From NCBI RefSeq assembly GCF_003721565.1, contig NZ_RJJE01000009.1:434001-498000 (forward strand): a stretch of DNA of 64,000 nucleotides, in the 5' to 3' direction. Shown in pieces: positions 2,725 to 62,165 of the stretch (position 1 is the first letter of the stretch; every line of letters starts with the position of its first letter). The stretch comes from Rufibacter immobilis. Its GTDB lineage: Bacteria; Bacteroidota; Bacteroidia; Cytophagales; Hymenobacteraceae. The translations under genes and the position numbers were made by a program. The notes under the pieces are model-generated. The model saw nothing but the letters and a program-made list of their open reading frames with translations. It was not told the origin of the DNA and did not search any database.

Positions 2725-2763
2725 CGTTTAGGGGCTCTTTTTCCTGAATTTGCCCAAAACCAG
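2725..2763. repeat. Degenerate copy of the 3'-end palindrome
   Basis: The left half (GCGTTTAGGGGCTCTTTTTC) fits the palindrome family seen throughout the window. The right half has decayed to a TTTGCCCAAAACCAGC form. It starts nine bases after the redoxin stop. Confidence 0.5.
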
Positions 2764-2887
2764 CACAAGCCTGTGGCGGAAGCGGCATGCTTGTTTTTTT
2801 TCATGCATTCTTGCGGTTGATACTTGATCTCTGCTGCTGCTGTTTCTGTAATTGCCAGTAGCTGGGAATACTGCCTTTGCCAACGCA

Positions 2888-2924
2888 GATTCTCCCTTTG
2901 AAGGGGGTAGGAGGATATTTACAC
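2888..2924. repeat. Single G-rich repeat of the CCCTTTGAAGGGGGTAGG family
   Basis: CTCCCTTTGAAGGGGGTAGG followed by AGGATATTTACAC matches the arms of the paired elements at 36039-36326 and 38630-38772. Here only one arm is present, in a gene-free stretch (2717-3668) that otherwise holds nothing but other repeats. Confidence 0.55.
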
Positions 2925-3148
2925 ATGCTGATTCATCTTCTGCTCTTAGCGGTGATGTCTTGCAGCTACTCTCCATTACCTTCCTAGCCGAACCTCGGGC
3001 TATATTACCTTCCGCCCGCGTCTGTCACTCTCGCCGTTGTTGGTGTTCTCACCGACAACCAAGACTGCCGCTCCGGTTAGCTCTATCCGTCTTTGCTTTC
3101 CATTGCCGTTCCTGCCGAACCTCTTATCATTTTACTTTCTGTCAACGT

Positions 3149-3217
3149 CTGTCACTTTTCTCCTTGATGAGAAAAGTAACCATCTGTCACTTTTCTCCTT
3201 GATGAGAAAAGTAACCA
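3149..3217. repeat. Two tandem copies of a 35-base hairpin unit
   Basis: CTGTCACTTTTCTCCTTGAT followed by GAGAAAAGTAACCA occurs at 3149 and again at 3184, exactly 35 bases later and identical. Within each unit ACTTTTCTC pairs with GAGAAAAGT. Two copies are too few for a CRISPR array. Confidence 0.8.
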
Positions 3218-3228
3218 AAAGAATCAAG

Positions 3229-3268
3229 AAGCTCCGGACTCGCTGACGCTCGGACAGGCGGAGCTTCG
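3229..3268. repeat. Intergenic hairpin GAAGCTCCG / CGGAGCTTC
   Basis: An inverted repeat with the arms GAAGCTCC and GGAGCTTC surrounds an inner GACTCGCTGACGC stretch. It directly follows the tandem 35-base units and may be part of one larger intergenic repeat. Confidence 0.5.
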
Positions 3269-3512
3269 GTTCTGTACCACCGGGCACCGTCCTCTGTTCC
3301 ATAGGGAACGTGGGCCATTGCTGAGTTTTTAAGGTCTAAGCGTGCTCCCGCTAAGCGCCTCGGGGCGTACCGCCCCTGCGTTGCCCGCTCCCGCAGGCAA
3401 ACCTACTGCCTGGGGAATTGCTTTGAGGCCTTTTGCATGCCTTCACCGTCCTGCGGAGGTGGCTGGAGTGGAGCTCAGGAGTTCAAGGTACTCCGTGTTG
3501 CCCCTTGACTGC

Positions 3513-3545
3513 GGGACTCCCCTCTTGGGAGGGGTAGGGGTGGGT
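3513..3545. repeat. G-rich repeat CTCCCCTCTTGGGAGGGG
   Basis: A short hairpin (CCCCTC / GAGGGG) is followed by TAGGGGTGGGTT. It is closely related to the pair at 58794-58944, but unpaired here. Confidence 0.5.
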
Positions 3546-3609
3546 TCCCGTTTAGCGGCTCTTTTTTCAAAAACAGGGTCAAAACAGCGCTTCCTTCCCG
3601 TCCCTCCTG

Positions 3610-3617
3610 TACCTTTG
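3610..3617 (+). promoter_or_regulatory. -7 promoter element for the O-methyltransferase gene
   Basis: TACCTTTG is an exact match to the TAnnTTTG -7 consensus, about 50 bases before the chosen GTG start. No good -33 TTTG is visible. It follows a degenerate palindrome at 3550-3588. Confidence 0.45.
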
Positions 3618-3668
3618 CCGCAGGAACAAACTCCTAATTCTTTTACCAATTCTAAATTCCCTCACGCC

Positions 3669-4313: not shown

Positions 4314-4519
4314 TCCACATTCTGTGGATAAGCCCGTGGATAACCGGGTGGAAAAATTTTTACTCCCTCTCTGCTTCCTTTGCCCTCCCAAAATCGCCTA
4401 CTTTGTAAATAAGCCTTCTGTACAACTCTTTACACATTAGCTATTTAGCGCGTGGTAATTCCAGTGTTACAAGAACATAGGCTTTTTACTATTCTTTTAC
4501 CCTTTGCCACGATAATTAG

Positions 4520-6700: not shown

Positions 6701-6726
6701 TCACGTCCTTTTCCAGGAACTACAAA

Positions 6727-6758
6727 CAGCAAAGCCGGCCCCACAGCCGGCTTTGCTG
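6727..6758 (+). terminator. Hairpin terminator of the lytic transglycosylase gene
   Basis: A perfect 13-base inverted repeat (CAGCAAAGCCGGC / GCCGGCTTTGCTG) has a 6-base loop, 26 bases after the stop. Its last bases are also the first bases of the palindrome at 6758-6795. Confidence 0.8.
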
Positions 6759-6795
6759 TTTAGGGCCCCTTTTCCGAAAAACAGCCCCTAAACGG
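6758..6795. repeat. 3'-end palindrome, imperfect
   Basis: GTTTAGGGCCCC, a T/A-rich centre, then CAGCCCCTAAAC. It overlaps the right arm of the preceding terminator hairpin. Confidence 0.75.
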
Positions 6796-7106: not shown

Positions 7107-7186
7107 TTACCAGAAAAGATGGAATAGTAAAGTTTATGAACCCACGCGGCAAGTGGTACTCCAAGGAAACAACCAACTAAACATCA

Positions 7187-7224
7187 CGTTTAGAGCCTCT
7201 TTTTCTAAAATCAGCCCCTAAACG
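7187..7224. repeat. 3'-end palindrome after the MFS gene
   Basis: CGTTTAGAGCCTC, a T/A centre, then CAGCCCCTAAACG. It starts only a few bases beyond the stop of the minus-strand MFS gene. Confidence 0.7.
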
Positions 7225-7227
7225 CCC

Positions 7228-8866: not shown

Positions 8867-9763
8867 ATGACCGAGAAAACAGCACAGAAGATGCCGCAAC
8901 CCAAGGGCGGAAGGATGATCCCCAAGGGAAAACTGCTGGCTATTGGCGGAAAAGAGAGCAAAGACCTAGATGATAAATCAGAGGGCAAAGGCAAGAACAT
9001 TAATTTCATCAGTGAGCAGATTCTGAAGCGCTTTGTGGCCGAACTAAAAGGCGAAAACCCACTGGTGGCCGTGATCCCGACGGCTTCGCAGGAGCCCGAG
9101 TTGTCTGCCCAAGATTACGTGAAGGTCTTCTCTGAGCTGGGAGTTAAAAATATTCAGGTACTGGACATCCGCAACCGTCAGGACGCCGCGCAACCAGATC
9201 ATTTGGAGGTCATTAAGCAAGCCGCGGGCATCATGTTCACCGGAGGAGACCAGTTGCGCCTGACGGCCATCTTTGGGGGCACGGAGATCCTGAACCTCAT
9301 GAAAGAGCGTTACGCGTTCTCAGACATCATCATTGCCGGTACCAGCGCTGGGGCGGCCGCCTTATCTACCCCCATGATCTACGAGGGCGAATCACAGGGC
9401 GGCTATATCAAAGGCGATGTCCGGATCACGACCGGCCTTGAATTTCTGAAAGACGTAGCCATTGACACCCATTTCCTTACCCGCGGCCGCATTGTACGCA
9501 TGACGCAGGCCATCGCCACCAACCCAGAATGTATTGGCATTGGCCTGGAGGAAGACACCGCCATTTTAGTTACTCTGGGCGGGAATGTGGAAGTGGTAGG
9601 CAGCGGCCTGATTACCGTGGTAGACGGAATGGGCATCACGGAGACCAATATCTATGACATCCAGAACGGTGAGCCGTTCACCACCAAAGGCCTGCGGGTG
9701 CACCTATTAGGCGACGCAGACGAATACCTCATCCCCACCTACGCCCGCCTGCAGTTAAAATAA
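8867..9763 (+). CDS. cphB: Cyanophycinase (peptidase family S51)
   Basis: The start is taken as the ATG at 8867 (MTEKTAQKMPQPKGG), although the frame is open to 8600; this gives 298 residues, normal for cyanophycinase. The enzyme hydrolyses the arginine-aspartate storage polymer to beta-Asp-Arg dipeptides. The serine-nucleophile motif GTSAGAAAL has Ser160. Other family signatures are GGKESKD near residue 28, FTGGDQ (124-129), THFLTRGR (201-208) and GIGLEEDTA (224-232). No signal peptide is present, so it is cytosolic. No cyanophycin synthetase gene is in the window. An isoaspartyl peptidase that could finish the degradation is 14 kb away, but it carries a signal peptide. Confidence 0.92.
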   Translation: MTEKTAQKMPQPKGGRMIPKGKLLAIGGKESKDLDDKSEGKGKNINFISEQILKRFVAELKGENPLVAVIPTASQEPELSAQDYVKVFSELGVKNIQVLDIRNRQDAAQPDHLEVIKQAAGIMFTGGDQLRLTAIFGGTEILNLMKERYAFSDIIIAGTSAGAAALSTPMIYEGESQGGYIKGDVRITTGLEFLKDVAIDTHFLTRGRIVRMTQAIATNPECIGIGLEEDTAILVTLGGNVEVVGSGLITVVDGMGITETNIYDIQNGEPFTTKGLRVHLLGDADEYLIPTYARLQLK

Positions 9764-9814
9764 ACTTCCCGTTTAGGGGCTGTTTTTGGAAAAACAGCCC
9801 CTAAACGGGAAGTT
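9763..9814. repeat. Perfect 3'-end palindrome (25-base arms)
   Basis: AACTTCCCGTTTAGGGGCTG plus TTTTT, then GG, then the exact reverse complement. It starts on the last base of the cyanophycinase stop codon and ends about 20 bases from the stop of the convergent bestrophin gene, so both genes share it. Confidence 0.9.
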
Positions 9815-13848: not shown

Positions 13849-13994
13849 GCAGCCTTTGTTTGCCCGTCCCTTTCTACCCCTCAAAAAGCAAATTTGATGT
13901 ACGTACGCAGACAAAATAAAATCAGCTTTCGGCTTGCCAGTGGCAGTACCGCTGCCGGACCAGTTACTGATGAAGGTTGTTGGTTGTGGAATGA

Positions 13995-14033
13995 CGTTTA
14001 GGGGCTGTTTTTCTAAAAACGGCCCCTAAACAG
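13995..14033. repeat. 3'-end palindrome after the DUF3817 gene
   Basis: CGTTTAGGGGCTGTTTTT, CT, then AAAAACGGCCCCTAAACAG, with one mismatch in the stem. It ends a few bases from the DUF3817 stop codon. Confidence 0.8.
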
Positions 14034-14345: not shown

Positions 14346-14545
14346 AAAAATTTGATTAGCTGATGCAAAGGTACGCCACCGGCTTAAATTACTTCCCTTC
14401 TAACGCAAGAACCTGCTAACATAGTGTAAACCCTATTTTAACACATGCTTCCCCGCGTTTCTGGTTTGGGCCTGATTTACAGAAAACAAGCGCTAAACGC
14501 CCTTTACAGGCGCAACTTTTAGTCCTGCTTCCGGTGTTTTCTTCG

Positions 14546-14553
14546 TATCTTCG
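14546..14553 (+). promoter_or_regulatory. Likely -7 element of the dnaE promoter
   Basis: TATCTTCG differs from TAnnTTTG at one base and lies 80 bases before the GTG start. The same TATCTTCG octamer precedes the minus-strand gene at 20069-22009, which supports it as a local variant of the -7 element. Confidence 0.4.
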
Positions 14554-14632
14554 TAGTCCGTTTCGGCGGGAATTTGGGGTGGCTTTCTGGTCATTCCTCA
14601 TTCATAATTCTCAATTCTTAATTACCGCTTCC

Positions 14633-18348: not shown

Positions 18349-18393
18349 TTTCTGTTTTTGGGCTGTTTTTGTAAAAAGAGGCTGAAAACGGAA
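18349..18393. repeat. Imperfect 3'-end palindrome after dnaE
   Basis: CTGTTTTTGGGCTGTTTTTG, then TAAAAAGAGGCTGAAAACGG. It is an imperfect member of the family, about 80 bases after dnaE. The rest of the gap 18269-18654 is filled by the four-hairpin element. Confidence 0.5.
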
Positions 18394-18452
18394 TGGACAA
18401 AACGACATCAGCCATTTCCCGCTCTTCCGGACTTATTCCCGCTCTTTCTGCT

Positions 18453-18586
18453 CTTCCGGATTTACTAATCCGGAAGTTCTCTGTCAGGGATTTATCAATC
18501 CCCGTGCCCACACTTTCTCAATTGGTCAGCAACGGGAATTAGGAAATCCCCGACAGAGTGATTCGGGATTGGTAAATCCCTGACAG
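18453..18586. repeat. Four-hairpin GGATTT element next to RAYT1
   Basis: CTTCCGGATT/AATCCGGAAG (18453-18476) and GGGATTTATCAATCCC (18487-18502) come first. The opposite-facing AAATCCCCGACAG (18544-18556) and GGGATTGGTAAATCCC (18565-18580) follow. The same layout occurs at 36110-36239 and 41464-41591. It lies about 70 bases before the RAYT start, as REP elements do near their transposase. Confidence 0.75.
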
Positions 18587-18654
18587 CAAATAGCAACACC
18601 TGAACTAGTACGCCAAATAGAAACAGGAATGACAGAGGTGACGTACTTTTCTGC

Positions 18655-19200: not shown

Positions 19201-19618
19201 GTCTATACAACGTAGTCTCGCCAATCCTTTGGCCCTTCCACAAACTTTCCCTACCTTTGTAACAAACCTTCGGGTTCTTGGCTTTTCCGGTTTAAAGTTG
19301 GCTTCCACCTCTTTTTACTAGAAAAGCCAAGTTTTTTATAGCCTCTCCCTGGGACTGGAGCAATAGCGGCATCACCTGAGCACAGCAGTTGACATTCTGT
19401 CATAGGTGATCTTCTTTGGTCTGTCTAACCTTTTAGAATTAAATCAGTAGATATACTGACGTTTCAGGCCCTGTTTCAGAAAAACGGCCGCTAAACGGTA
19501 TCCTTAAGGATATTGACAAACCTGACACAAAAGCGTTATTTTACTTGTTCTTTGGCTTTGGTTCTATTTTTGAACAGAGCCTTTACTCAAATTAGATACT
19601 TATATAAACCAGACGATT
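19201..19618. other. Gene-free stretch upstream of thioredoxin
   Basis: I see no gene. It contains an imperfect palindrome (19460-19498; CGTTTCAGGCCCTG ... CGGCCGCTAAACG) and the trxA promoter. The remainder shows nothing recognisable. Confidence 0.6.
19545..19572 (+). promoter_or_regulatory. Promoter of the thioredoxin gene
   Basis: TTG (19545-19547), a 17-base spacer and TATTTTTG (19565-19572) fit the Bacteroidota -33/-7 pattern. The start codon is about 47 bases further on. Confidence 0.5.
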
Positions 19619-19945: not shown

Positions 19946-19965
19946 GCATAGCTGCTCCGCTGTAA

Positions 19966-20002
19966 CAGAAAAGCCCCTCCTTTCTCAGGAGGGGCTTTTC
20001 TG
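19966..20002 (+). terminator. Hairpin terminator of trxA
   Basis: A perfect 15-base inverted repeat (CAGAAAAGCCCCTCC / GGAGGGGCTTTTCTG) with a 7-base loop, 21 bases after the stop. Its right arm runs straight into the palindrome that starts at 20002. Confidence 0.85.
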
Positions 20003-20037
20003 TTTAGGGGCTGTTTTTGGAAAAACAGCCCCTAAAC
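20002..20037. repeat. Perfect 3'-end palindrome (17-base arms)
   Basis: GTTTAGGGGCTGTTTTT, GG, then the exact reverse complement. It is shared by the convergent genes trxA and the 20069-22009 gene. Confidence 0.9.
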
Positions 20038-20068
20038 GCAACTGGGCCAGTTGAAAAAGCTGACTCTT

Positions 20069-23789: not shown

Positions 23790-23792
23790 AAG

Positions 23793-23821
23793 AAAGAGGC
23801 CGGAGCGTTTCCGGCCTCTTT
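23793..23821 (+). terminator. Intrinsic terminator of the GT-C-like gene
   Basis: An 11-base perfect hairpin (AAAGAGGCCGG / CCGGCCTCTTT) with a 7-base loop is followed by more T. It merges into a half palindrome (TTTTTGAAAAAACAGCCCC, then TAAACGG) at 23815-23843. Confidence 0.85.
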
Positions 23822-23853
23822 TTGAAAAAACAGCCCCTAAACGGAAACTGGCG

Positions 23854-24897: not shown

Positions 24898-25070
24898 TGA
24901 CGTGTTGTGCTTGTTGAGCGGTGTGAAGATGTGCTAATGTAAGCAAAATTCAGGTGACTGGGAGCGGCACCGCCGCAGCTGGAATTTCAAAACCCTGAAA
25001 TTGGCATGTGGATGGTTGAAGCGCAAACAGAAAGACCCGCCGCCGCACTACAGCCCCTTCAGGTCATGCC

Positions 25071-25109
25071 AGTTTTTGCCTGTTTCTGGAAAAAGAGCCC
25101 CTAAACGGA
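25071..25109. repeat. Imperfect 3'-end palindrome
   Basis: AGTTTTTGCCTGTTTCTGG, then AAAAAGAGCCCCTAAACGG. It lies in the 294-base gap upstream of the isoaspartyl peptidase gene and downstream of the lipoprotein gene. Confidence 0.55.
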
Positions 25110-25817: not shown

Positions 25818-26348
25818 ATGACCAAGAACGGTTTCAACTACACCCTTGACTTTACCTCCACCAATTTCAGGCTACAGCCCCATCTGTACCGGATAGGCGT
25901 GGGCGAGCAGGGAGTATTGCTGGTGGAGCCGTACAAAAGTGAGATTCTGCCGCACTGGCGCTTCAAGACCGCTGAGGTGGCGCTGGCTTCAGCCCAGAAA
26001 ATCTACAGCTTGTTTGAGGAGTACCTTGCGCAGCAGGATTTTGTGGGCGCAGACATGGGCCGCAAGTTTTTGCAGATGGGATTTACCCGCGCCCGCCGCT
26101 ACGCCAACCACAAGGGAGGCCGCAAGTACCAAACCTCAGGCACAGACCATTCGGCGGATAAGCCTTACCCCTATTCCTCGGGCAGCGCCCATAAAGGCAA
26201 TGCTATTCTCCCGCAGGAAGACGATGCCCTCACGAACGAGAAGGCGCAGGCGGCGGCGGTGTTCAAGGAGTTCTGGTTCAGGGCCAAAGATCACCCGGAG
26301 TACCTCAGGCAGAAACAGGCGTTCAAAGAGCAGTATTATGAGAAGTAG
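25818..26348 (+). CDS. DUF4385 family protein
   Basis: The product is 176 residues and soluble. It begins MTKNGFNYTLDFTSTNFR and has the family features LYRIGVGEQGVLLVEPYKSE, VGADMGRKFLQMGFTRARRY and the late FKEFWFRAKDHPEY. DUF4385 proteins occur sporadically in bacteria and have no assigned function. The Arg-rich helix around MGFTRARRYANHKGG could contact nucleic acid, but this is only suggestive. A palindrome begins two bases after its stop codon. Confidence 0.8.
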   Translation: MTKNGFNYTLDFTSTNFRLQPHLYRIGVGEQGVLLVEPYKSEILPHWRFKTAEVALASAQKIYSLFEEYLAQQDFVGADMGRKFLQMGFTRARRYANHKGGRKYQTSGTDHSADKPYPYSSGSAHKGNAILPQEDDALTNEKAQAAAVFKEFWFRAKDHPEYLRQKQAFKEQYYEK

Positions 26349-26349
26349 C

Positions 26350-26387
26350 GTTTAGCGGCTCTTTTGGGAAAAACGGCCCCTAAACGG
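26350..26387. repeat. 3'-end palindrome between convergent genes
   Basis: CGTTTAGCGGCTC, a T/A centre, then CGGCCCCTAAACG. It begins two bases after the DUF4385 stop and also lies beyond the DsbD-like gene. Confidence 0.7.
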
Positions 26388-30215: not shown

Positions 30216-30259
30216 AAGCGTTTAAGGGCTGTTTTTGGAAAAACAGCCCCTAAACGCTT
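30216..30259. repeat. 3'-end palindrome after the CNNM-type gene
   Basis: AAGCGTTTAAGGGCTGTTTT, a short centre, then CAGCCCCTAAACGCTT, with one mismatch. It is 30 bases after the stop. Confidence 0.8.
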
Positions 30260-30382
30260 TTATTGTTTTATATGGGTCTTGATCTCAGCCGGAGGCCTTG
30301 TTGTGCACGCATTCCGCTAATGCTATTGGAATGCTGGCTTGTCTAGGCTTTATAAGCTTTGTTGTTCCATAGTTTCCGCTAT

Positions 30383-30490
30383 GCGCTCACGGCCGCGGGG
30401 CCTCGTCTTCCCCTCTCGCAAGCCCTTGCGGCCAAGCCAATGCAGTTGGCCTTTATTTTCTGCTATCCTTTGGCCACTAGCGAGGCGCTC
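30383..30490. repeat. Dispersed intergenic repeat, copy 2
   Basis: This is the reverse-oriented copy of the element at 7000-7106, with the blocks 30383-30434 and 30471-30490 conserved. Its middle part (30435-30470) is not shared. Confidence 0.75.
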
Positions 30491-31022
30491 GATGGGAAGA
30501 CTGGAAGAGTTGCGGCTAGCAAAGGCTGTTACAGCTTGAGGCAAAACATGGCGTGAGTCTCCGGCTAGCAGAGATAATAGGGGAAGGGAAAGATTAGCCA
30601 CATGATTAAGTGCGTTTAGAGGCTCTTTTTCCAGAATCGGACGTAAAGCAATGAAAGCGGCTTTTACTTTTTTTCAGCCTTTTTTGAGCTTCTTCTTCTA
30701 TGACTTCTTCCTTTCAGCAGGTTTGGGGCGTGTTTTAACACATCCCATTATTTTACTATAGCCCTTTCTGTAACGCACGGGTAAACTTTTCACCAAGATT
30801 CAATTCATCAATTAGTTAACAACCACCTTCAGCCAAAATCTCAATACTACAATTCAAGCAAAATCCTACTCATCATCCTCTTAAAAGACAGAGAAAAGAT
30901 GAACAGGTACTCTTTCTGCTGCTCTACAGAATTACTTGTGGCATAACCTTCAAGGGCTTTTTCCCGTTTCCTGTCATTAAAAAGTAAAAAAACTATATAG
31001 GAATTTATCAGCATCTTCTTCT

Positions 31023-32882: not shown

Positions 32883-32927
32883 CGCTGCGTTTCTGACCTG
32901 TTTTTCCCAAAAGAAGCTAAAAACGCT
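32882..32927. repeat. Degenerate 3'-end palindrome inside the operon
   Basis: AACGCTGCGTTTCTGACCTG, a T/A centre, then GAAGCTAAAAACGCT. It fills the whole gap between the epimerase stop and the ATG of the fusion gene. Confidence 0.5.
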
Positions 32928-36326: not shown

Positions 36327-36357
36327 GGGTAGAGTAGCAACAGAAAAAATAACTCCC

Positions 36358-36393
36358 GTTTTTGGCCTGTTTTTAGAAAAACAGGCCAAAAAC
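36358..36393. repeat. Perfect palindrome with covaried arms (GTTTTTGGCCTG)
   Basis: GTTTTTGGCCTGTTTTT, AG, then the exact reverse complement. The same architecture as the GTTTAGGGGCTG type, but with several stem bases changed on both sides together. Confidence 0.9.
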
Positions 36394-36440
36394 AGCTTCC
36401 AACAAGAAGCACCAAACATACCATCTTAACCCTTTACACT

Positions 36441-37487: not shown

Positions 37488-38598
37488 GCAGCACAGAACC
37501 GTTCTCATGACCACCGACACCGTGGGCGGCGTCTGGACGTACAGCCTGGAGCTCATCCGGGCTATGGCGCCGCACCACGTGCACTTTTACCTGGCCACCA
37601 TGGGTGCCGCCATTACCCTGCAGCAACGCCAGGAACTGACCGCCCTTTCTAACGTGACGGTGTACGAAAGTGAATATCAGCTGGAATGGATGGATTACCC
37701 CTGGGACGATGTGGACGCCGCGGGCGAGTGGCTCCTGGAACTCAGCCGCGAACTCAATCCAGACCTCATCCACCTGAACAACTTCTGCCACGGCCAACTG
37801 CCCTGGAACAAACCCGTGCTCATGGTCATCCACTCGTGCGTGCAGACCTGGTGGCGCGCCGTGAAAAACGAGAAAGCCCCCGCAGGCCGAGACTATTACT
37901 TTGAGCGCGTACGCGAAGGCCTGCATGCCGCCGATGTGGTAGTAGCCCCTACCCAAGCCATGCTCACCGAGGCCGAAGCCGTTTATGGCACGTTTTCGCA
38001 AAAACAGGTCATAAACAACGGCCGCGACCCACATGCCTTCCGCTTCGGGCGAAAGGAACCGTTCATCTTCAGCATGGGCCGCGTCTGGGACGAGGCCAAG
38101 AACATCGCCCTTCTCACCCAGGTGGCCGATGCCGTGGACTGGCCTATTTACATTGCCGGTGACGCCACCCACCCCGCCACAGGCGAAAACAAGCTTTTCA
38201 AGAACGTGCACTTCCTGGGCAAACTTTCCCAAAGGGAAATTTCTGATTGGCTTTCCCGCGCCTCTTTGTATGTGCTGCCCGCCAAATACGAGCCGTTCGG
38301 ATTATCCATTCTGGAGGCCGCGTTTTCGGGTTGCGCGTTGGTGCTGGGCAAGATTGACAGCCTCAAGGAAGTCTGGGACCGTTCCGCAGAGTTCGTGGAA
38401 ACAAACGATGTAGAAGGCCTCACCGCCATTTTGCAGAAACTGATTGATGATGAATTCCTCCGCAACATCATGGCCTGCCGTGCCGTGAAGAAAGCCCAGG
38501 ATTACACCGCCGCCCTCATGGCGCAGGAGTACCTGCAAGCCTACGCTGATTTGCCCAAACGCGTGAATACCAAAAAGGCAAAGCCTGTGGAGACTTAA
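37477..38598 (+). CDS. Glycosyltransferase family 4 (GT-B)
   Basis: The cytosolic protein has 373 residues. The N-terminal acceptor domain contains TVGGVWTYSLELI, and the C-terminal donor domain contains FSMGRVWDEAKN and the E-x7-E motif EPFGLSILEAA, typical of retaining GT4 enzymes. It begins inside the last codons of the Idh gene (ATGGTAGATAA). The sugar donor is unknown. No membrane segment is present, so its acceptor may be soluble or membrane-attached through other partners. It is the first of four glycosyltransferases in the region. Confidence 0.88.
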   Translation: MVDKQHRTVLMTTDTVGGVWTYSLELIRAMAPHHVHFYLATMGAAITLQQRQELTALSNVTVYESEYQLEWMDYPWDDVDAAGEWLLELSRELNPDLIHLNNFCHGQLPWNKPVLMVIHSCVQTWWRAVKNEKAPAGRDYYFERVREGLHAADVVVAPTQAMLTEAEAVYGTFSQKQVINNGRDPHAFRFGRKEPFIFSMGRVWDEAKNIALLTQVADAVDWPIYIAGDATHPATGENKLFKNVHFLGKLSQREISDWLSRASLYVLPAKYEPFGLSILEAAFSGCALVLGKIDSLKEVWDRSAEFVETNDVEGLTAILQKLIDDEFLRNIMACRAVKKAQDYTAALMAQEYLQAYADLPKRVNTKKAKPVET

Positions 38599-41345: not shown

Positions 41346-41393
41346 TTTTCCGTTTAGGGGCTATTTTTTGAAAAACAGCCCCTAAACGGAAAA
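41346..41393. repeat. 3'-end palindrome after CgeB-like copy 2
   Basis: TTTTCCGTTTAGGGGCTATT, a T/A centre, then AAAAACAGCCCCTAAACGGA(AAA). One mismatch in 20-plus base pairs. Confidence 0.85.
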
Positions 41394-41650: not shown

Positions 41651-41694
41651 TTCCGTTTAGGGGCTGTTTTTCAGAAAACAGCCCCTAAACGGAA
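41651..41694. repeat. Perfect palindrome (20-base arms)
   Basis: TTCCGTTTAGGGGCTGTTTT, TCAG, then the exact reverse complement. This copy is not next to a stop codon, being about 310 bases after CgeB-like copy 2. Confidence 0.9.
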
Positions 41695-42991: not shown

Positions 42992-43017
42992 TTGTAGTTG
43001 AACGTATTTGTGATTTC

Positions 43018-43055
43018 CGTTTTCGGCCTGTTTTTCTCAAAACAGGCCGAAAACG
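43018..43055. repeat. Perfect palindrome with covaried arms (CGTTTTCGGCCTG)
   Basis: CGTTTTCGGCCTGTTTT, TCTC, then the exact reverse complement. It marks the left border of the AT-rich segment. Confidence 0.9.
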
Positions 43056-43150
43056 TTTAAAAGAAATACTTATATTAAAGTTTTTATATTTAATTTAAAT
43101 ATCTAGCTTCGCAAAATAAGTATTCATCTATAAAACAATTAATTAAAAAA

Positions 43151-46182: not shown

Positions 46183-46228
46183 CTTCCGTTTTTGGCCTGT
46201 TTTTCCAAAAAGAGGCCAAAAACGGAAG
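46183..46228. repeat. Palindrome with covaried arms (CTTCCGTTTTTGGCCTG)
   Basis: CTTCCGTTTTTGGCCTGTTT, a T/A centre, then AGAGGCCAAAAACGGAAG. It is shared by the convergent RAYT2 and deacetylase genes. Confidence 0.85.
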
Positions 46229-49152: not shown

Positions 49153-49209
49153 AAAGATGCTGCCGTTTAGCGGCTGTTTTTTCAAAAACAGGCCAAAAAC
49201 AGCATCTTT
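49153..49209. repeat. 3'-end palindrome with an extended outer stem
   Basis: AAAGATGCTG (49153-49162) pairs with CAGCATCTTT (49200-49209). It encloses an imperfect GCCGTTTAGCGGCTG / CAGGCCAAAAAC core. Its right end also forms a CATCTTTG promoter-like word for the NUDIX gene. Confidence 0.65.
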
Positions 49210-53838: not shown

Positions 53839-53962
53839 AACCCATATACGCTGAAGAACGGCAAAACTGTTTTGGGGCTGTTTTCAGAAAAACGGCTCCT
53901 AAACGCAATAGAGGCTTTAAAAAAGAAGGTAGCTGCAATGAACCTTCCTTTTACAAATATTA

Positions 53963-54559: not shown

Positions 54560-54605
54560 TTCCTGTTTCGGGCCTGTTTTTCTGAAAACAGGCCCGAAAC
54601 AGGAA
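54560..54605. repeat. Perfect palindrome with covaried arms (TCCTGTTTCGGGCCTG)
   Basis: TTCCTGTTTCGGGCCTGTTT(T), TCTG, then the exact reverse complement. It is about 70 bases upstream of the carbonic anhydrase start. Confidence 0.9.
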
Positions 54606-54730
54606 AGGATTCCTCCCCTCCTTCCGGATAGAAACCCCTTAAAGTTAAGTGAATGAAATCTGAAGTTCTGTTTTCGGCTTGATTTCAGAAAAACACCCTC
54701 TAAATGCAAACTTCGCCTTTTGAATTTGAG

Positions 54731-55747: not shown

Positions 55748-55915
55748 GCGAATTTTCTAAACGGAATGCCTCGGCTCCTGCAAGGTACGCATTGCTTACG
55801 GAATTAAGGCGAAGCGGATGGTACACCTGTTATAATAGCGCACCTGTTTTTAGCCTGTTTTCAGAAAAATAGCCCCTAAATGCCTTCAACAGTTAAAACC
55901 AGCAGGAGCTTCTGC

Positions 55916-56056: not shown

Positions 56057-56148
56057 GGAATGCGTGAAATCTGTTTTCCGTTTTAAACCTATTTTTAAAA
56101 CACCAGCCTAAAAACGCATTAGCAGAATATCCCCTCTCCGAAGCAAGG

Positions 56149-56186
56149 CGTTTAGGGGCTGATTTCGGAAAAACAGCCCCTAAACG
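56149..56186. repeat. 3'-end palindrome after the TonB receptor gene
   Basis: CGTTTAGGGGCTGATTTCGG, then AAAAACAGCCCCTAAACG. It ends six bases from the stop codon. Confidence 0.85.
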
Positions 56187-56191
56187 GTAAC

Positions 56192-58639
56192 TTAAAACTC
56201 CAGCACAAACCCAATGGTAGGCAAAAACGTCACGTCATCCTCGTCCAAAATCAATGGAATGGCGTTGCTGCCGTTGGGTTGCAGCGGCTGGCCGTCTGTA
56301 GTGGCGAAACCGGTGTTATCTGCGGTGCGCTTGAACGTGTACTGCGGTAAGGACGGACCTTTGAACCGGAAGATGTTCTGGATGTCTACATACAGGTCCA
56401 GGGTGGTGCGTTTGTAGTTCCATTTCTTGTCCAGGCGTACGTCCAGCTGCTGGAAGGAGCGCAGCCGAAGCGTGTTCAGGCGGTCATAGTCCAGCAGACC
56501 GGTGCCCAGCGAGGCGTAGTTCTGTTGCGAGGCCTCCAGGTCAAACGGCGTGTAGGGCGAGCCTCCGGCGAAGCGGTATTTCCCGCCCAGTTCCCAGTTT
56601 TTACCGAACTGCCAGCCCAGCAACGCCGACACCAGATGCCGGTTGTCCCACGCCGAGGCGATGTAGTTGTCATTATTCAGGCCGGTAAACTCACTGCGCA
56701 CCAAGGTGTAGGAGAACAGCCCATACAGACCGCGGGTGAGCTTCTGCTGGAAAAAGAATTCGGCCCCGTAAGCCCGACCTTTGCCTAAGCTCGCCACGGC
56801 CTCGTTCCCAATCGCCCCGAACTCAATGCCCTGATTCGCCAGAGAAACGCCGTCACGCAAAGAAACCGGGTAATTGCCGTAGCGTTTGTAGAAACCTTCC
56901 ACGGTGAGGCGGTTGGCAATGGACGGCAAAAACTCCACGCCGGCCACGTAGTGCGTGGACTTGATGTAGTCGCTGTTTTTATTGGCGTAGGCACCGGCGG
57001 CATCTTTGTAGCCCAGCACCGTGTAAATAGGCAGCCGGTAATACGTGCCCACCGAGGCGTTCAGTTTCCAGCGTTCGGCAAGGGCGTAAGAGGCAGACGC
57101 CCGCGGCGAAAGCGTCTCCAGTGGGTTGTTGCCATCGGTGGTGAACGAGTTCATATCGGAGCGCACGCCCAAGGAAAGGCTCAGCTTGTCCTGCCAAAAG
57201 CTCCTAGAGGCCTGCCCGTACACGCCGTAGCGGAAGAAATTTAAATCGGTGTCGAAATCCAGCACCACGCGGGGCTGCACCACGGCACCGTTCTGGTCCC
57301 GCACTTCCTGCCGTATCTGGCTGAAGAAGTCATTGGTATAGCCCACGTACTGGCCAATGGCACCGTACGAGAACTTCCAACTGCCCACAAACTTGTTCAC
57401 GTCTACCCGCAGCTTGTTCTCCTTTTCCTGCGACCGCGCCTTGAGCACCCTCCTGGATTCATCCCCGTACTGCGCGTCCTCAAAGCGGTCCAGGCGGTTC
57501 TCAAACACGTTTCGGCTGAGAGACACTTGCACAAAACCGTTCTCCAAAGAGCGTTTCAAACTCGCCCCCACCGTGTAATTCCACTGGTTAATGAGCGGGT
57601 TAGACCGCAGCGCGTATTCTTTCTCCGGCGAAGACTCTTTGGGCACCGCGAAACTGAAATCGTCAATAGCGCCAATACCCAAGGCCGTGAGGGTGGTTTT
57701 AGAATCCAACTGGTGCGTGACCTTGTACTGGAAATCCCAGTAATTAGGCCTGATGGGTAAATCGATGGCTTTGAACAGCAACTGCAAATAAGAACGGCGC
57801 GCCGAAGCCAGGAACGTGGTCTTAGGCGCGAGCGGACCTTCCAGCGTAGCGGCCAACTCCGTCGCGCTCAGGCGCACGTTGCCCTGCAGGCGGTCGGGGT
57901 TGCCGTCACGCTGCCTAAACTGGAACACGCTGGAGAGGGCATTGTCATAGCGGGCATCAAAGGCGCTGGTGCTCAGGGTCACGTCCTCAATAAACGACAC
58001 GTTCAAGATACCCTGCGGACCGCCGCTGCTGCCCTGCGTGGAGAAGTGGTTGATGACCGGAATCTCAATTCCATCCAGGAAAAAGACGTTCTCGCCGGGC
58101 CCGCCGCCCCTGATCACGATGTCGTTTCTAAAACCGGCTCCCGTGCTGCCCGCCCCGGCCACGCCCGGCAACGTCTGAATTACGCGGGAAATATCAAAAT
58201 TCCCGCCGGGGTTGCTCTTGATTTCCTCGCTGCTCAGACTTTGAATGGATAAAGGGGTTTCAATGGAAGCCGCCCTGATGGAACGGTCTACGGTAATGTT
58301 CACTTCCTGCAACCGGTTCTGGCTGGGCGTAAGCTCCAGGTTCAGGGTGAGGGCGTTGCCCGAAGTCACCGGCACATTATACCGGGTCACCGGCTCGTAA
58401 CCCAGAAAAGAAGCCCTGATGTTGTAACTGCCGGTGGGCACATTCTCCAGCCGGTAACGGCCCTGCGCGTCGGTAGCGGCGGCAATGGTGGTAGCCTCCA
58501 GCGCCACAGTAGCGCCAATGACCGGTTCCTGGGTATTTCTATCGCGCACTACACCCGTGATTCTACCCGTGCTCTGGGCCTGCACCTGAAATGACACGAA
58601 GAAAAGCAGTGTGTAGAAAAGCGTATAAAATTTAGCCAT
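56192..58639 (-). CDS. TonB-dependent outer-membrane receptor with carboxypeptidase-like N-terminal domain
   Basis: The 815-residue protein has a signal peptide (KFYTLFYTLLFFVSFQVQAQ). A carboxypeptidase-regulatory-like domain follows (about 24-110: GRITGVVRDRNTQEPVIGAT), then a plug domain (RVIQTLPGVAGAGSTGAGFR, VIRGGGPGENVFFLDG) and a beta barrel to the C-terminal FVLEF. It imports a large nutrient such as a siderophore or peptide across the outer membrane, driven by TonB. It is not a SusC/RagA type and has no SusD neighbour. The substrate is not revealed. It is monocistronic. Confidence 0.92.
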   Translation of the reverse strand: MAKFYTLFYTLLFFVSFQVQAQSTGRITGVVRDRNTQEPVIGATVALEATTIAAATDAQGRYRLENVPTGSYNIRASFLGYEPVTRYNVPVTSGNALTLNLELTPSQNRLQEVNITVDRSIRAASIETPLSIQSLSSEEIKSNPGGNFDISRVIQTLPGVAGAGSTGAGFRNDIVIRGGGPGENVFFLDGIEIPVINHFSTQGSSGGPQGILNVSFIEDVTLSTSAFDARYDNALSSVFQFRQRDGNPDRLQGNVRLSATELAATLEGPLAPKTTFLASARRSYLQLLFKAIDLPIRPNYWDFQYKVTHQLDSKTTLTALGIGAIDDFSFAVPKESSPEKEYALRSNPLINQWNYTVGASLKRSLENGFVQVSLSRNVFENRLDRFEDAQYGDESRRVLKARSQEKENKLRVDVNKFVGSWKFSYGAIGQYVGYTNDFFSQIRQEVRDQNGAVVQPRVVLDFDTDLNFFRYGVYGQASRSFWQDKLSLSLGVRSDMNSFTTDGNNPLETLSPRASASYALAERWKLNASVGTYYRLPIYTVLGYKDAAGAYANKNSDYIKSTHYVAGVEFLPSIANRLTVEGFYKRYGNYPVSLRDGVSLANQGIEFGAIGNEAVASLGKGRAYGAEFFFQQKLTRGLYGLFSYTLVRSEFTGLNNDNYIASAWDNRHLVSALLGWQFGKNWELGGKYRFAGGSPYTPFDLEASQQNYASLGTGLLDYDRLNTLRLRSFQQLDVRLDKKWNYKRTTLDLYVDIQNIFRFKGPSLPQYTFKRTADNTGFATTDGQPLQPNGSNAIPLILDEDDVTFLPTIGFVLEF

Positions 58640-58717: not shown

Positions 58718-58759
58718 GCCGTTTTTGGCGTTAATTCTGAAAAGGACGCCAAAAACGGC
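58718..58759. repeat. Palindrome with covaried arms (GCCGTTTTTGGCGT)
   Basis: GCCGTTTTTGGCGT, a 14-base T/A-rich centre, then ACGCCAAAAACGGC. A further arm variant that keeps base pairing. Confidence 0.8.
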
Positions 58760-58944: not shown

Positions 58945-59004
58945 TGCGCGCATTCAATTAGCACCATGACAGCTACCTCTATAATGCGGCTCCCAAGGCA
59001 ACTC

Positions 59005-59045
59005 CTGTTTTAGGTCTGTTTTCGCAAAAACGGCCGCTAAACGGA
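59005..59045. repeat. Imperfect 3'-end palindrome after the endonuclease III gene
   Basis: CCTGTTTTAGGTCTGTTTTC, then GCAAAAACGGCCGCTAAACG. It ends about three bases from the stop of the minus-strand gene. Confidence 0.65.
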
Positions 59046-59047
59046 AT

Positions 59048-59755
59048 TCATTGGTCAATCCCCTTGCTGCGTACCTCGGCATAATAATTACACAGGTTCT
59101 GCAGCACGCACACTTCGCACTTGGGGGCGCGCCAGGTGCAGATTTTCTGACCGTGTTTGAGCATATGGCGGTGCAGGTTGTAGAGCACCAGCGCGTCTTT
59201 GGGCAGCAGGTCCAGCAGAATCTGGTGGGCTTTCTCATGAGTGACTTTGGCCCCAATGAGCCCCACCCGCTGACTAATGCGGTGCACGTGCGTGTCTACC
59301 GGAAACACCGGTTTATGGAAGTTGAACAGCAGCACCAGCGTGGCAGTCTTCAGCCCCACCCCGGGCAGCGCCATGAGCCAGTCCATGGCTGTCTCCACCT
59401 CCATCTCCCGCAAAAAATCAAGATTGTAATCTGGGTGGTCGACCTGAATAATTTTTAAAGCTTTCTGGATGTTGAGCGCCTTGGCACCGGGGAACTCGGC
59501 CGGGGCCAGAGCTTCAGTCAGTTCGTCTACGGGGGCATTGATCACTTCTTCCCAGGTGGGGAACTTCTCCAGCATCTGGAAATACGCCTTCTCCTCGTTG
59601 GCGTGGGTGGTGCGGTGCGAGAGCATGGTGGAAATGAGCTCGCGCATGGGGTCGCGGCGCGGATGGCCCGAGAGATGACCGAAAACTTCATTTAACCGTA
59701 TATGAACTTGCCATATTTTTTCTGCCGGAGGAAGTTGCTGCTGAGCGTCAGCCAT
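59048..59755 (-). CDS. Endonuclease III family DNA glycosylase
   Basis: The 235-residue cytosolic enzyme has the helix-hairpin-helix motif LPGVGLKTATLVL with the catalytic Lys, and the catalytic Asp in PVDTHVHRIS. The iron-sulfur motif is present as C-x6-C-x2-C-x5-C near the end (CTWRAPKCEVCVLQNLC). Such enzymes remove oxidised pyrimidines and cleave abasic sites. The usual N-terminal start is short here (ADAQQQLPPAEK), so it may belong to a subgroup related to Nth rather than the main Nth. Confidence 0.88.
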   Translation of the reverse strand: MADAQQQLPPAEKIWQVHIRLNEVFGHLSGHPRRDPMRELISTMLSHRTTHANEEKAYFQMLEKFPTWEEVINAPVDELTEALAPAEFPGAKALNIQKALKIIQVDHPDYNLDFLREMEVETAMDWLMALPGVGLKTATLVLLFNFHKPVFPVDTHVHRISQRVGLIGAKVTHEKAHQILLDLLPKDALVLYNLHRHMLKHGQKICTWRAPKCEVCVLQNLCNYYAEVRSKGIDQ

Positions 59756-59861
59756 AGTCTGTGATTTTTCCTCTAAACGCGCCCCCCTTGGTAAAGTTTA
59801 CGCAAGAACGCTGTTTCAATCTTCGTGCATTAAGAATGGTTATAAGCCTTACCCCATTGCT

Positions 59862-60581
59862 ATGAAATTCACCTTTTTAGGGACTGGCGGAGCCTTTGAC
59901 GTAGCCTACGGCAACTCTGCTGCATTAGTAGAATTCAAGGGCCACACCCTGCTGCTGGACTGTGGCTTTACCGTTTACCCTACCCTGCGGGAGCACCAGC
60001 TTACCCGCGGCATAGATTACATCCTGCTCACGCACCTGCACAATGACCACACCGGCAGCCTGGCCAACGTGCTGCTGCATTGCCACTACTTCAACCCCAA
60101 CTGCCGGCCCACCATTCTGTACCCCGACGATGATTTCCGGGATGAACTGTACGAGTTTCTGCGGCTCCAGCTCCAGAAGCCCGAAAAATACGCTGAGTTC
60201 ATGCCGCTCTCTGAGCTACCCGGCATTACTGCCCTAGATACGTATGGCCTACACGCCGAACGTCTGCAAACCTACGCCTACATTTTTGAGGACCACGGAG
60301 AACGACTGGTTTACTCCGGCGACATTGGCCAACCCGAGGCGCTCTTCGCTTACCTGCGCGGCATGCCGCCCAAAGCCACCACAGTATTCCATGACATCAC
60401 GTTCTCCGAGCAGAATACAGCCCACACCTACTATAAAAAGTTGATTCCGCTGGCCCAGGATTACCACATTTATGGCTACCACTGTGACCCAACCAAAAGC
60501 CCTACAGACAACCCGTTCCCGTTGGTGTACCACCAGCCGGAACTCATGCTGTCTTCGCTGTTGCAGGAGGCCATGCATTAA
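59862..60581 (+). CDS. MBL-fold metallo-hydrolase
   Basis: The protein of 239 residues has the metal-binding motif THLHNDHTG near residues 56-64, the later GDIGQP (Asp ligand) and YHCDPTK (late His). The start MKFTFLGTGGAFDVAYGNSA is the usual first strand of small beta-lactamase-fold hydrolases that act on nucleotide or small-molecule esters, including RNase Z-like members. The substrate is unknown. It lies 107 bases from the divergent endonuclease III gene and has a likely hairpin terminator after it. Confidence 0.87.
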   Translation: MKFTFLGTGGAFDVAYGNSAALVEFKGHTLLLDCGFTVYPTLREHQLTRGIDYILLTHLHNDHTGSLANVLLHCHYFNPNCRPTILYPDDDFRDELYEFLRLQLQKPEKYAEFMPLSELPGITALDTYGLHAERLQTYAYIFEDHGERLVYSGDIGQPEALFAYLRGMPPKATTVFHDITFSEQNTAHTYYKKLIPLAQDYHIYGYHCDPTKSPTDNPFPLVYHQPELMLSSLLQEAMH

Positions 60582-60618
60582 ATCCATATTTTGAACCGGC
60601 ATCCTTTAGACAGGCAGT

Positions 60619-60648
60619 GCCTCCCTCATAGGGAGCAGGAGGCCTTTT
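60619..60648 (+). terminator. Likely terminator of the MBL-fold gene
   Basis: GCCTCC (60619-60624) and GGAGGC (60638-60643) form the outer stem, with an inner pairing, followed by TTTT. It is 38 bases after the stop. Confidence 0.55.
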
Positions 60649-60679
60649 CCCTTGCCAAGCCCTTAAGACCTACCCGTGT

Positions 60680-61327
60680 ATGGCCTTTTCTTTCGCAACA
60701 GATAAAACCCATGAGCATTTCCGTCAAAACCCGCTTCTCATTGCCTATGCCGTAATTTTTACCGCTTTCTGGGCTTATACCGGTTTCCACACGCCAGACC
60801 TCAAGAACTGGTGGCTGGAGAACACGCTTACTTTCTCGGCGGTTATTCTGCTGGTGGTGTTTTACCGGTATTACCGGTTCTCAGATTTCAGCTACACCTG
60901 CATGTTCCTGTTCATGCTGCTGCACACCTACGGCAGCCAGTACACGTACGCAGAGAACCCCTTCGGCTTCTGGGTGCAGGACCAGCTCAACCTGGAGCGC
61001 AACCACTATGACCGGCTGGTGCATTTCAGCTTCGGGTTTCTGCTGGCGTACCCCATGCACGAGCTTTTCTGGCGCCTCACCAACATGCGGCCTTTCTTCA
61101 GTTATGTGCTGCCGGTAGACTTGACCGTAAGCCTGGGCGCGTTCTATGAACTGATGGAATGGTCTGTAGCCGATGTTTTCTTTCCCGCCCAGGGCATGGC
61201 CTACTTGGGCACACAAGGCGATGTCTGGGATGCGCAGAAAGATATTGCCATCGCCCTGCTGGGCGCCATTCTTACCATGCTGGCCGTGGGTCTCACCAGA
61301 AAAGAGAAACGCCCGCTTCCCGTTTAG
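60680..61327 (+). CDS. DUF2238 membrane protein
   Basis: The 215-residue protein has about six hydrophobic helices and the family signatures FSDFSYTCMFLFMLLHTYGS, YDRLVHFSFGFLLAYP and YELMEWSVADVF, then WDAQKDI near the end. DUF2238 proteins (YjdF-like) are inner-membrane proteins of unknown role. The last codons and the TAG stop lie inside a palindrome (61311-61368), so the repeat defines the C-terminus. Confidence 0.85.
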   Translation: MAFSFATDKTHEHFRQNPLLIAYAVIFTAFWAYTGFHTPDLKNWWLENTLTFSAVILLVVFYRYYRFSDFSYTCMFLFMLLHTYGSQYTYAENPFGFWVQDQLNLERNHYDRLVHFSFGFLLAYPMHELFWRLTNMRPFFSYVLPVDLTVSLGAFYELMEWSVADVFFPAQGMAYLGTQGDVWDAQKDIAIALLGAILTMLAVGLTRKEKRPLPV

Positions 61328-61368
61328 AGGCTCTTTTTCTGAAAACAGGCTCTAAACGGAAAGCGGGC
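61311..61368. repeat. Palindrome that supplies the stop of the DUF2238 gene
   Basis: GCCCGCTTCCCGTTTAGAG (61311-61329) pairs with CTCTAAACGGAAAGCGGGC (61350-61368), with one mismatch. The GTTTAG within it provides the last Val codon and the TAG stop of the DUF2238 gene. Confidence 0.8.
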
Positions 61369-61395
61369 GCGCTGCACACACGGAGGCGGCAAGAT

Positions 61396-62004
61396 TTAAT
61401 CGTATTTCACTTTGATGTCATTGCCCTCAATCTTCACTTTGCCGCGGGCGGTTTCAATCTTGGTTTCCTCCGGTGAGATCTTGATCTTGGTGTCTCCGGA
61501 GACAAATTTCACTTCTTTGGTGGCCCGGCGGTAATAGTGCTGCCGCTTGAGCCAGTAGTTCTTCAGCTGCGGCAAATCCATTCTGGTAGAGCGGCGGGCA
61601 TCCTGTGCCAATGCGCTCTGCAACTGCCGCTGCGTGGGCCGCACATATTTCTTTTTGGCGGGAGCCACTTTCTTGGCCGGGGCCGGAGCCGCGGCAATAG
61701 GGGAATTGTCTACTTCCTGTGCCTGGCTCTCTGCGCCAGCGCTAGTTCCAGCGGTTCCCGAGGCCTCGCTTCCGTCTAGAGGTTGCGCATAGTCCCCGTC
61801 GTTCTCGTCACTGCCATAGGCGGCTAATTGCGCGTCTGTGAGCACGGTGTCAAGTTCTAGGGTATCTGGGGTGAGCACAAGGGTATCTTCCACGGATGTC
61901 TCCGGTAAATCGGCAACGGCTTCTTTATCTTTCACGCGTTCGCAGCTGCCCAGGGCCATTCCCCCTATCATCAGCCCGAAGAGCATTCTTGTCATTTTCT
62001 GCAT
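61396..62004 (-). CDS. Lipoprotein of unknown function
   Basis: The ATG at 62004 gives a lipoprotein signal with the lipobox LGSC (MQKMTRMLFGLMIGGMALGS, then CERVK); codons further upstream are not needed. The mature part is acidic at first (EDTLVLTPDTLELDTVLTDA), then Ala/Pro/Lys-rich with APAPAKKVAPAKKKYVRPTQ, which could be a periplasmic spacer. The C-terminal 50 residues are Lys/Thr-rich (KYD end) and may contact the cell wall. I do not recognise a family. Confidence 0.65.
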   Translation of the reverse strand: MQKMTRMLFGLMIGGMALGSCERVKDKEAVADLPETSVEDTLVLTPDTLELDTVLTDAQLAAYGSDENDGDYAQPLDGSEASGTAGTSAGAESQAQEVDNSPIAAAPAPAKKVAPAKKKYVRPTQRQLQSALAQDARRSTRMDLPQLKNYWLKRQHYYRRATKEVKFVSGDTKIKISPEETKIETARGKVKIEGNDIKVKYD

Positions 62005-62123
62005 TTGGTAATACGGTTGATTCAGCTTCCCTAAACGCAGGCCACGCCCAGAGGTTGAATTCCGGTGCTTGTTTCCCGTGTGCCAGGCACGTTTTCCCTT
62101 GCAATTTCCTGCTAATACCACCG

Positions 62124-62165
62124 CGCGTTTAGGGGCTGTTTTTCCAGAATTAGAGCAAAACCAGC
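62124..62165. repeat. Degenerate palindrome
   Basis: The left half GCGCGTTTAGGGGCTGTTTT is intact. The right half is decayed to TTAGAGCAAAACCAGC, similar to the copy at 2725-2763. Confidence 0.5.

Follow-up and report, generated by a model that had tools for sequence, protein, structure and literature searches.

A 36-bp dyad element at gene 3' ends throughout Rufibacter, tentatively read as the site of a DNA-bending protein

The long-running discussion of repetitive extragenic palindromes (REPs) has cast them as selfish DNA, terminators, mRNA stabilizers, or gyrase sites, and the DNA uptake sequences of Neisseria and the Pasteurellaceae occur in inverted pairs. According to the available text of PMC3733652, REPs carry a conserved tetranucleotide tag (GTAG or CGTC) at one hairpin end, their frequent GT pairs are an argument for RNA function, and those of E. 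coli are said to be gyrase targets. The accessible part of PMC6006769 assigns the motifs NHLH, WQ, and YIHQNP to TnpA-REP subclass 2.6 of the Bacteroidetes, which is group 5 of the REP-associated tyrosine transposases (RAYTs), and mentions "atypical secondary structures" beside its genes. Other reports, likewise available in part, describe stable stem-loops, defined by pairing, at gene 3' ends in many bacteria (PMC1590033), peaks of DNA curvature downstream of genes in E. coli as a diffuse composition signal (PMC516772), and the homogenization of inverted-repeat arms by template switching (PMC8604942). Here, we describe a family of dyad elements in Rufibacter, starting from a 64,000-nucleotide stretch of the Rufibacter immobilis genome (contig NZ_RJJE01000009.1, positions 434,001 to 498,000; here "the window"). 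That genome (4.77 Mb) is referred to as G000, in which the window is G000:C1:434001-498000. A literature search whose coverage left out most subscription journals found no description of this 36-bp family, and no Rfam family reached its gathering score on the window.

The original prediction, made from the window alone, described about 30 intergenic palindromes in which variable but matched arms enclose a T run and an A run, and it named six as perfect. All six are present at the coordinates given for them (Table 1), and the count and its end points agree with the 33 copies that a half-site profile finds within 2724-62164 (34 in the whole window). This profile has no pairing requirement and was trained on two relatives, G004 and G014; 100 kb from five other genera yields 4 matches. 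A pairing scan requiring at least 13 of 17 paired arm bases and a T-rich center finds 21 copies in the window and none in each of five first-order Markov simulations. Across the genus, the constant part of the element is a 36-bp dyad, GTTT-N9-TTT-N4-AAA-N9-AAAC. A relaxed form of this skeleton matches 633 times in G004 and 573 times in G003, compared with 1 and 2 matches for the reversed controls. In 864 kb of G000, the (9,4,9) register occurs 242 times and the (8,4,8) and (10,4,10) registers not at all; registers of the same total length, arising from longer T runs, are also common, and the registers one base shorter (8,5,8) and one base longer (10,3,10) occur 37 times and 3 times.

This Rufibacter family is real, genus-wide, and located mostly at gene 3' ends. 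Among 148 genomes of the order, the strict form of the element is found in all 16 Rufibacter genomes at 70 to 1,334 copies each and in the other 132 at 0 to 2 copies each, with 1 or 2 copies in 4 of them. An exact scan of named genomes returned at least 65 stretches, 64 from Rufibacter and 1 from Sabulibacter among the matches listed. Viral contigs gave 54 stretches with a single match each, which we regard as chance. Profile densities of 0.44 (G000), 0.38 (G005), 0.43 (G012), 0.61 (G004), and 0.59 (G014) copies per kb extrapolate to approximately 1,800 to 3,500 copies per genome.

To place the copies relative to genes, we used a home-made hexamer caller trained on G000 (approximately 80% of 464 kb coding), and the gap counts are approximate. 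In this 464 kb, 129 symmetric copies have a usable stop, and the distance to it is at most 50 bp for 67% of them, bearing out the predicted proximity to stop codons. Symmetric copies between divergent genes number 5 of the 134 in classified gaps, against an expected 17.9%, and those within called genes number 4 of 146. The wider profile shows a weaker depletion from divergent gaps (26/337 in G000, 12/133 in G005, and 28/162 in G012, with 21.4%, 22.3%, and 27.7% expected). Counted from the genes, a copy lies no more than 150 bp downstream of 325 of the 675 called gene ends in G000 and no more than 150 bp upstream of 164 starts; the corresponding ends and starts number 132 and 69 of 319 in G005 and 136 and 73 of 329 in G012. 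When these three genomes are pooled with G004 and G014, a copy is present in 71/91 convergent, 74/195 tandem, and 3/29 divergent gaps of 80 to 150 bp and in 44/58 convergent and 27/90 divergent gaps of 150 to 300 bp. High copy number, extragenic location, and 3'-end placement are thus all REP-like.

The positions are old. In the 15 other genomes of the genus, orthologous convergent gaps hold a copy in 15/15, 14/14, and 2/2 comparable genomes and an orthologous tandem gap does so in 3/4, compared with 0/12, 1/15, and 0/14 for orthologous divergent gaps. Of 131 copies in approximately 214 kb of G004, 127 have a match in G014; 113 of these can be placed, and 109 of the 113 have a copy there. Given these copies at orthologous gaps across species, we rejected recent mobile insertion. 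We aligned 83 of the 102 covered G004/G014 pairs, the other 19 having been dropped for unequal spacer, offset, closeness to an end, or lack of a copy; ascertainment bias is limited, as 101 of the 102 covered segments cleared a lowered threshold in G014. Divergence is 0.03, 0.04, 0.01, and 0.04 at T4, T5, T15, and T16 and 0.13, 0.10, and 0.14 at G2, T3, and T17, so that the GTTT..TTT skeleton ranges from 1 to 14% by position. The N9 mean is 0.20, and the first 10 flanking bases stand at 0.24. The position-wise pattern thus shows the skeleton to be under purifying selection and N9 to be near drift. The prediction had placed selection on a hairpin or cruciform rather than on the bases; the element is indeed under selection, but the data support a target that is chiefly the bases GTTT..TTT (mean divergence, 7%, versus 24% in the flanks) and not arm pairing. 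Rigid spacing is thus combined with position-specific purifying selection in both half-sites, as in a protein-bound dyad.

Because of the rigid geometry, the dyad symmetry, the conservation of the skeleton in both arms, and the 3'-end placement, we tentatively favor the possibility, without holding it to be probable, that this 36-bp element is bound by a dimeric, DNA-bending protein that is specific to Rufibacter and occupies the 3' ends of transcription units. The retention of its place and of its A/T tracts between species is suggestive of a reader in the cell. These tracts, four in number, are centered approximately 4.5 and 15 bases away from the dyad axis, a spacing of roughly one helical turn, and the site should therefore be curved. 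Its predicted bend is 58 to 62 degrees in G000, G004, and G012, compared with 20 to 22 degrees for shuffled copies and 26 to 28 degrees for random intergenic DNA. A putative dimeric, genus-specific protein would bind and bend the element; bound at the 3' ends of transcription units, it might assist in terminating or insulating transcription or in taking up its supercoiling. A broader version, in which a dedicated bending protein would mark most transcription-unit ends at thousands of fixed places while the spacers turn over jointly into dialects, seems to us rather unlikely.

Several points weigh against a protein-bound site. The bend was computed from an old wedge model, which says nothing on function. 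No binding protein was identified, and no genome-wide search for one was made. Strict copies are few in G008 (70) and G015 (97), a reader of the skeleton alone leaves a species-specific N9 consensus unexplained, and the rigid length could also reflect common descent. In the five pooled genomes, 44 of the 87 divergent gaps longer than 300 bp contain copies, a figure in which genes undetected by the home-made caller may play a part. At the second orthologous convergent gap, 3 of the 14 genomes have gaps of 1.1 to 1.7 kb, and two of the copies could be chance. A structural role is possible because the conserved skeleton bases pair with each other, and fully paired copies, which make up 2 to 18% of copies, exceed shuffles in all five genomes.

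These paired copies bear on a different explanation, namely, that the elements are RNA hairpins, either intrinsic terminators or 3'-end stabilizers, kept by compensatory change, which would also suit their location at 3' ends. The prediction held that arms differ between copies and yet stay paired. We counted pairing over the nine variable positions of N9, with shuffled arm partners as the control. Total paired bases show no excess in G000 (2,143 versus 2,133 ± 24) or G012 (1,088 versus 1,100 ± 15) and an excess in G005 (906 versus 833 ± 14); the first listed sites give 446 versus 380 ± 12 of 900 in G004 and 216 versus 191 ± 9 of 450 in G003. The distribution across copies is bimodal. Most copies are poorly paired in N9 and are not perfect palindromes, whereas copies paired at 9/9 positions are in excess everywhere (67 of 384 copies versus 20.2 in G000, 28 of 156 versus 3.1 in G005, 31 of 177 versus 15.1 in G012, 3 of 131 versus 0.1 in G004, and 9 of 125 versus 0.1 in G014). 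The claim of paired arms is therefore only partly right, and family-wide compensatory selection is rejected given the bimodality and the lack of a total excess in G000 and G012 with an unbiased profile. Perfect cores also join outer stems, which are locus-specific, in 37/67 perfectly paired copies versus 4/231 poorly paired copies in G000 (P = 2.5e-24), 10/28 versus 4/102 in G005, 10/31 versus 3/103 in G012, 2/3 versus 4/114 in G004, and 5/9 versus 5/112 in G014; it is this minority that the predicted hairpin fits. At least five T's fall within the 8 bases past the outer stem on the coding side of 9/29 tandem copies in G000 and on the other side of 0/29, so that for these copies the assertion that the element is "not the textbook terminator" fails. 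The same test gives 3/5 versus 0/5 in G005 and, with no coding-side bias, 1/4 versus 1/4 in G012, and poorly paired G000 copies are at background (6/119 versus 8/119). A minority of copies thus resemble terminators whose stem tip is the element, and fully paired copies with an outer T run should double as intrinsic terminators.

Selection on RNA pairing would favor G-T over A-C mismatches. Such selection is not seen because the two are about equal on the coding strand (52 versus 54 in a smaller count; 137 versus 125 among better-paired copies and 395 versus 428 among the remainder across the five genomes). Between G004 and G014, 11 of the 18 paired cells that changed on both sides are still paired, as compensatory change would have it, but 86 of 324 paired cells have become unpaired and 106 of 423 unpaired cells have become paired. 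At the thioredoxin locus, moreover, the element at 20000-20039, which has a counterpart at the orthologous place in 15/15 other genomes of the genus, lies beyond that gene's terminator hairpin, and by eye a similar hairpin occupies the same place in those 15 genomes. Taken together, we consider RNA hairpins unlikely as the explanation of the family. The idea that the element substitutes for terminators was also rejected: in G000, a terminator is found at 64/144 convergent-gap ends with the element and at 28/38 without it, a pattern absent in G005 (26/56 versus 4/14), G012 (36/64 versus 13/26), G004 (18/30 versus 2/4), and G014 (18/30 versus 2/8). For insertion into terminator loops, the nested locus L127:605 was traced into relatives, and no clear empty terminator was found at the 5 of 15 loci compared (9 were reversed and 1 had no upstream match). 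Distinctly unlikely, to our minds, is that template switching at imperfect palindromes (quasipalindrome correction) incidentally generates the perfect ones, with pairing that has no function. Pairing is all or none and extends into the flanks, as this would predict. At one locus (locus e), G002 and G011 carry AAGGTGTTTCGGGGC matched by an inverted copy that takes in the right arm and flank, G003 has the same left flank without the matching right side, and G014 compared with G004 is the mirror case; the 9 perfect copies of G014 have 9 distinct arms. These block changes and private arms suggest template switching within a copy as a source of pairs. However, perfect copies have few distinct arms, common to many copies, in G000 (11/67) and G012 (6/31), the coding-side T run of paired G000 copies points to terminator use, and quasipalindrome correction covers neither the skeleton nor the number nor the placement of the elements. 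It can hold alongside a protein-bound site.

Variation in the arms takes the form of species dialects, with the consensus GCGTTTAGGGGCTGTTTTT in G000, CCGTTTTGGGCCTGTTTTC in G005, and CCGTTTTCGGGCTCATTTC in G012, which point to copying between sites or coevolution with a reader. Arms seem to change singly because many G000 copies (57 of 291 half-site matches) have one new-type arm and one degenerate arm. Half-sites without a well-paired partner are a minority (49/268), and the match of G012 copies to their own dialect is graded, not two-peaked. Together, dialects and single-arm changes suggest that an arm is occasionally replaced by a copied sequence, taken either from another copy or from its partner arm. 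Thousands of copies with such dialects would also be expected if a RAYT had spread the element as a mobile, REP-like family that is now mostly fixed, and a test for a RAYT-like partner had been suggested. The window does contain a RAYT gene (open reading frame [ORF] 18655-19200; NCBIfam NF047646, 98.7 bits versus a cutoff of 80); it is the sole Pfam Y1_Tnp match of G000 and has the motifs NHLH, WQ, and YIHQNP of subclass 2.6. Fragments of a related, disrupted gene are found at G000:C10:127902-128427. RAYT relatives occur in 15/16 genomes of the genus, and RAYT matches correlate weakly with strict copy number (Spearman 0.52, P = 0.04, without correction for kinship), but there is no RAYT match in G006, a genome with 387 strict copies. 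The hairpins beside the window RAYT clade are of another kind, with AATCC- or ACTCC-type cores, such as GTTCGGGATT-GGTA-AATCCCGAAC (L084-L090 and L099), and 864 kb of sampled G000 DNA contains few of them (6 loose matches). Short AATCC-core hairpins cluster at 18440-18600, upstream of the window RAYT, and similar ones are found beside its orthologues (L085-L089); these are perhaps the true REP of this clade.

The element does not behave as the cognate repeat flanking these transposases. Around the 30 RAYT matches, its density is 0.67 per kb versus 0.47 in sampled DNA, and a copy lies within 400 bp upstream in 17/30 cases versus 38% of 1,484 genes, at most a mild excess; the downstream (15/30 versus 51%) and both-side (7/30 versus 21%) frequencies are like those of other genes, although at L105 and L096 copies lie close on both sides. 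The columns outside the arms of asymmetric G000 copies show no GTAG or CGTC tag, and in three genomes the arms have G/C-C-G as their outermost bases. The orientation of TTGGAA/TTCCAA centers follows the sign of GC skew in G000 (53:30 versus 7:19, P = 0.0014), as single-strand transposition at forks might give; this bias is limited to one loop type of G000, and no orientation bias of the center is seen in G012 or G005. With other hairpins beside its clade and element frequencies near background beside RAYTs, the window RAYT is rejected as the partner and is probably not related to the element in that way, and we do not file the element under REP/RAYT systems. Given these results and the age of its positions, a RAYT-spread mobile family appears quite improbable. 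Finally, the elements could be high-affinity sites of a type II topoisomerase (gyrase or topoisomerase IV) relieving transcription-driven supercoils. The dyad with its 4-bp center, the phased A tracts, an apparent, weak AT ripple that reaches approximately 40 bp out from the dyad (three genomes), and the preference for convergent gaps would fit, but gyrase is widespread and the motif is restricted to one genus apart from the few stray copies noted above, which makes this very improbable. We return, then, to a dimeric bending protein as the reading we tentatively prefer, and the copies in the window are listed in Table 1.

Table 1. Element copies and adjoining hairpins in the window ("profile" denotes detection by the half-site profile).
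Feature	Position	Details
Element copy	1376..1415	Profile score 28.6
Asymmetric copy; left arm G000 type, right arm degenerate	2724..2763	Directly past stop of ORF 2123-2716; profile
Element copy	3548..3587	Profile score 41.1
Terminator-like hairpin adjoining copy 6756..6795	6724..6761	16-bp perfect inverted repeat
Element copy abutting hairpin 6724-6761	6756..6795	13/17 paired; profile score 43.3
Element copy	7186..7225	13/17 paired; profile
Perfect 25-bp palindrome, convergent gap	9763..9814	Core 9769-9808 plus locus-specific outer arms; profile
Element copy	13994..14033	16/17 paired; profile
Element copy	14461..14500	Profile score 34.8
Element copy past DNA polymerase III alpha gene (14534-18268)	18352..18391	13/17 paired; profile
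Asymmetric copy	19459..19498	Profile
Terminator hairpin between thioredoxin gene and copy 20000..20039	19964..20004	18-bp perfect inverted repeat
Element copy	20000..20039	Perfect 17-bp arms 20002-20037; profile
Terminator-like hairpin	23791..23823	3' arm doubles as left arm of copy 23805..23844
Element copy	23805..23844	13/17 paired; profile
Asymmetric copy	25069..25108	Profile
Element copy beginning at stop codon of 25818-26348	26348..26387	Profile; gap occupied in 14/14 comparable genomes
Element copy	30218..30257	21-bp arms 30216-30259; pairing scan; profile
Asymmetric copy	30612..30651	Profile
Element copy	32887..32926	Profile score 36.5
Element copy, GGCC-type arms	36356..36395	Perfect 17-bp arms 36358-36393; profile
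Element-like copy within called gene 37477-38598	37979..38018	13/17 paired; profile
Element copy	41350..41389	23-bp arms 41346-41393, one mismatch; profile
Element copy	41653..41692	Perfect 20-bp arms 41651-41694; profile
Element copy	43017..43056	Perfect 17-bp arms 43018-43055; profile
Element copy	46186..46225	22-bp arms 46183-46228, one mismatch; profile
Element copy	49163..49202	13/17 paired; profile
Element copy	53867..53906	13/17 paired; profile
Element copy	54563..54602	Perfect 21-bp arms 54560-54605; profile
Element copy	54668..54707	Profile score 36.0
Asymmetric copy	55844..55883	Profile
Element copy	56078..56117	Profile score 34.0
Element copy adjoining stop of 56192-58639	56148..56187	16/17 paired; profile
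Element copy with GGCGT arm	58719..58758	14/17 paired; profile
Element copy adjoining stop of 59048-59755	59005..59044	Profile score 42.7
Element copy, convergent gap, overlapping end of 60680-61327	61320..61359	15/17 paired; profile
Asymmetric copy	62125..62164	Profile

Other repeats were seen alongside the element. Window positions 30335 to 30565 (approximately) are part of a dispersed repeat of about 200 bp with many copies, mostly 75 to 85% similar, in G000 and its relatives, and at 3151-3215 a 30-bp sequence occurs twice, 5 bases apart, each copy being itself near-palindromic. A further repeat, approximately CCTCC(C/T)GGGAGGGGTAGGGGTGGGTT, directly precedes three element copies in two G000 stretches (L116 and L121).

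The Rufibacter family is fixed in place between species, with a few T positions near-perfectly conserved while the rest drifts and with a measurable species dialect. This puts the questions of which feature is read, and which reader is responsible, within reach of direct tests in environmental bacteria, and it offers a natural case for separating site selection from copying and from palindrome repair. Among known systems, it shares with REP, BIME, and REPIN elements and their RAYTs the features of short extragenic palindromes in hundreds to thousands of copies at 3' ends and in convergent gaps, with RAYTs in the genus. Unlike them, it has no tag that we could see, a fixed 36-bp A-tract dyad, positions kept between species, and no G-T bias, and the window RAYT clade is flanked by other hairpins. 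The TnpA-REP subclass 2.6 systems (PMC6006769, in the part available) belong to the same phylum and share the motifs of the window RAYT, but short AATCC-type hairpins, not the element, lie beside that clade. With bidirectional intrinsic terminators, a minority of copies share a GC stem, outer A and T runs, and convergent gaps; the element differs in its common core, a T run inside the 5' arm, and, in most copies, poor pairing and the lack of an outer T run. Like DNA uptake sequences, it occurs in thousands of copies with dialects and as inverted pairs near gene ends, but few copies lie in called genes and unpaired half-sites are a minority. As with the stem-loops described in the available text of PMC1590033, convergent gaps and the 50 bp past stop codons are its preferred places, but most copies pair poorly and it is their bases that are conserved. 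Finally, it resembles the E. coli curvature peaks, as described in the accessible part of PMC516772, in its phased AA/TT and its curvature past coding sequences, but unlike that diffuse signal, it is a discrete conserved site.

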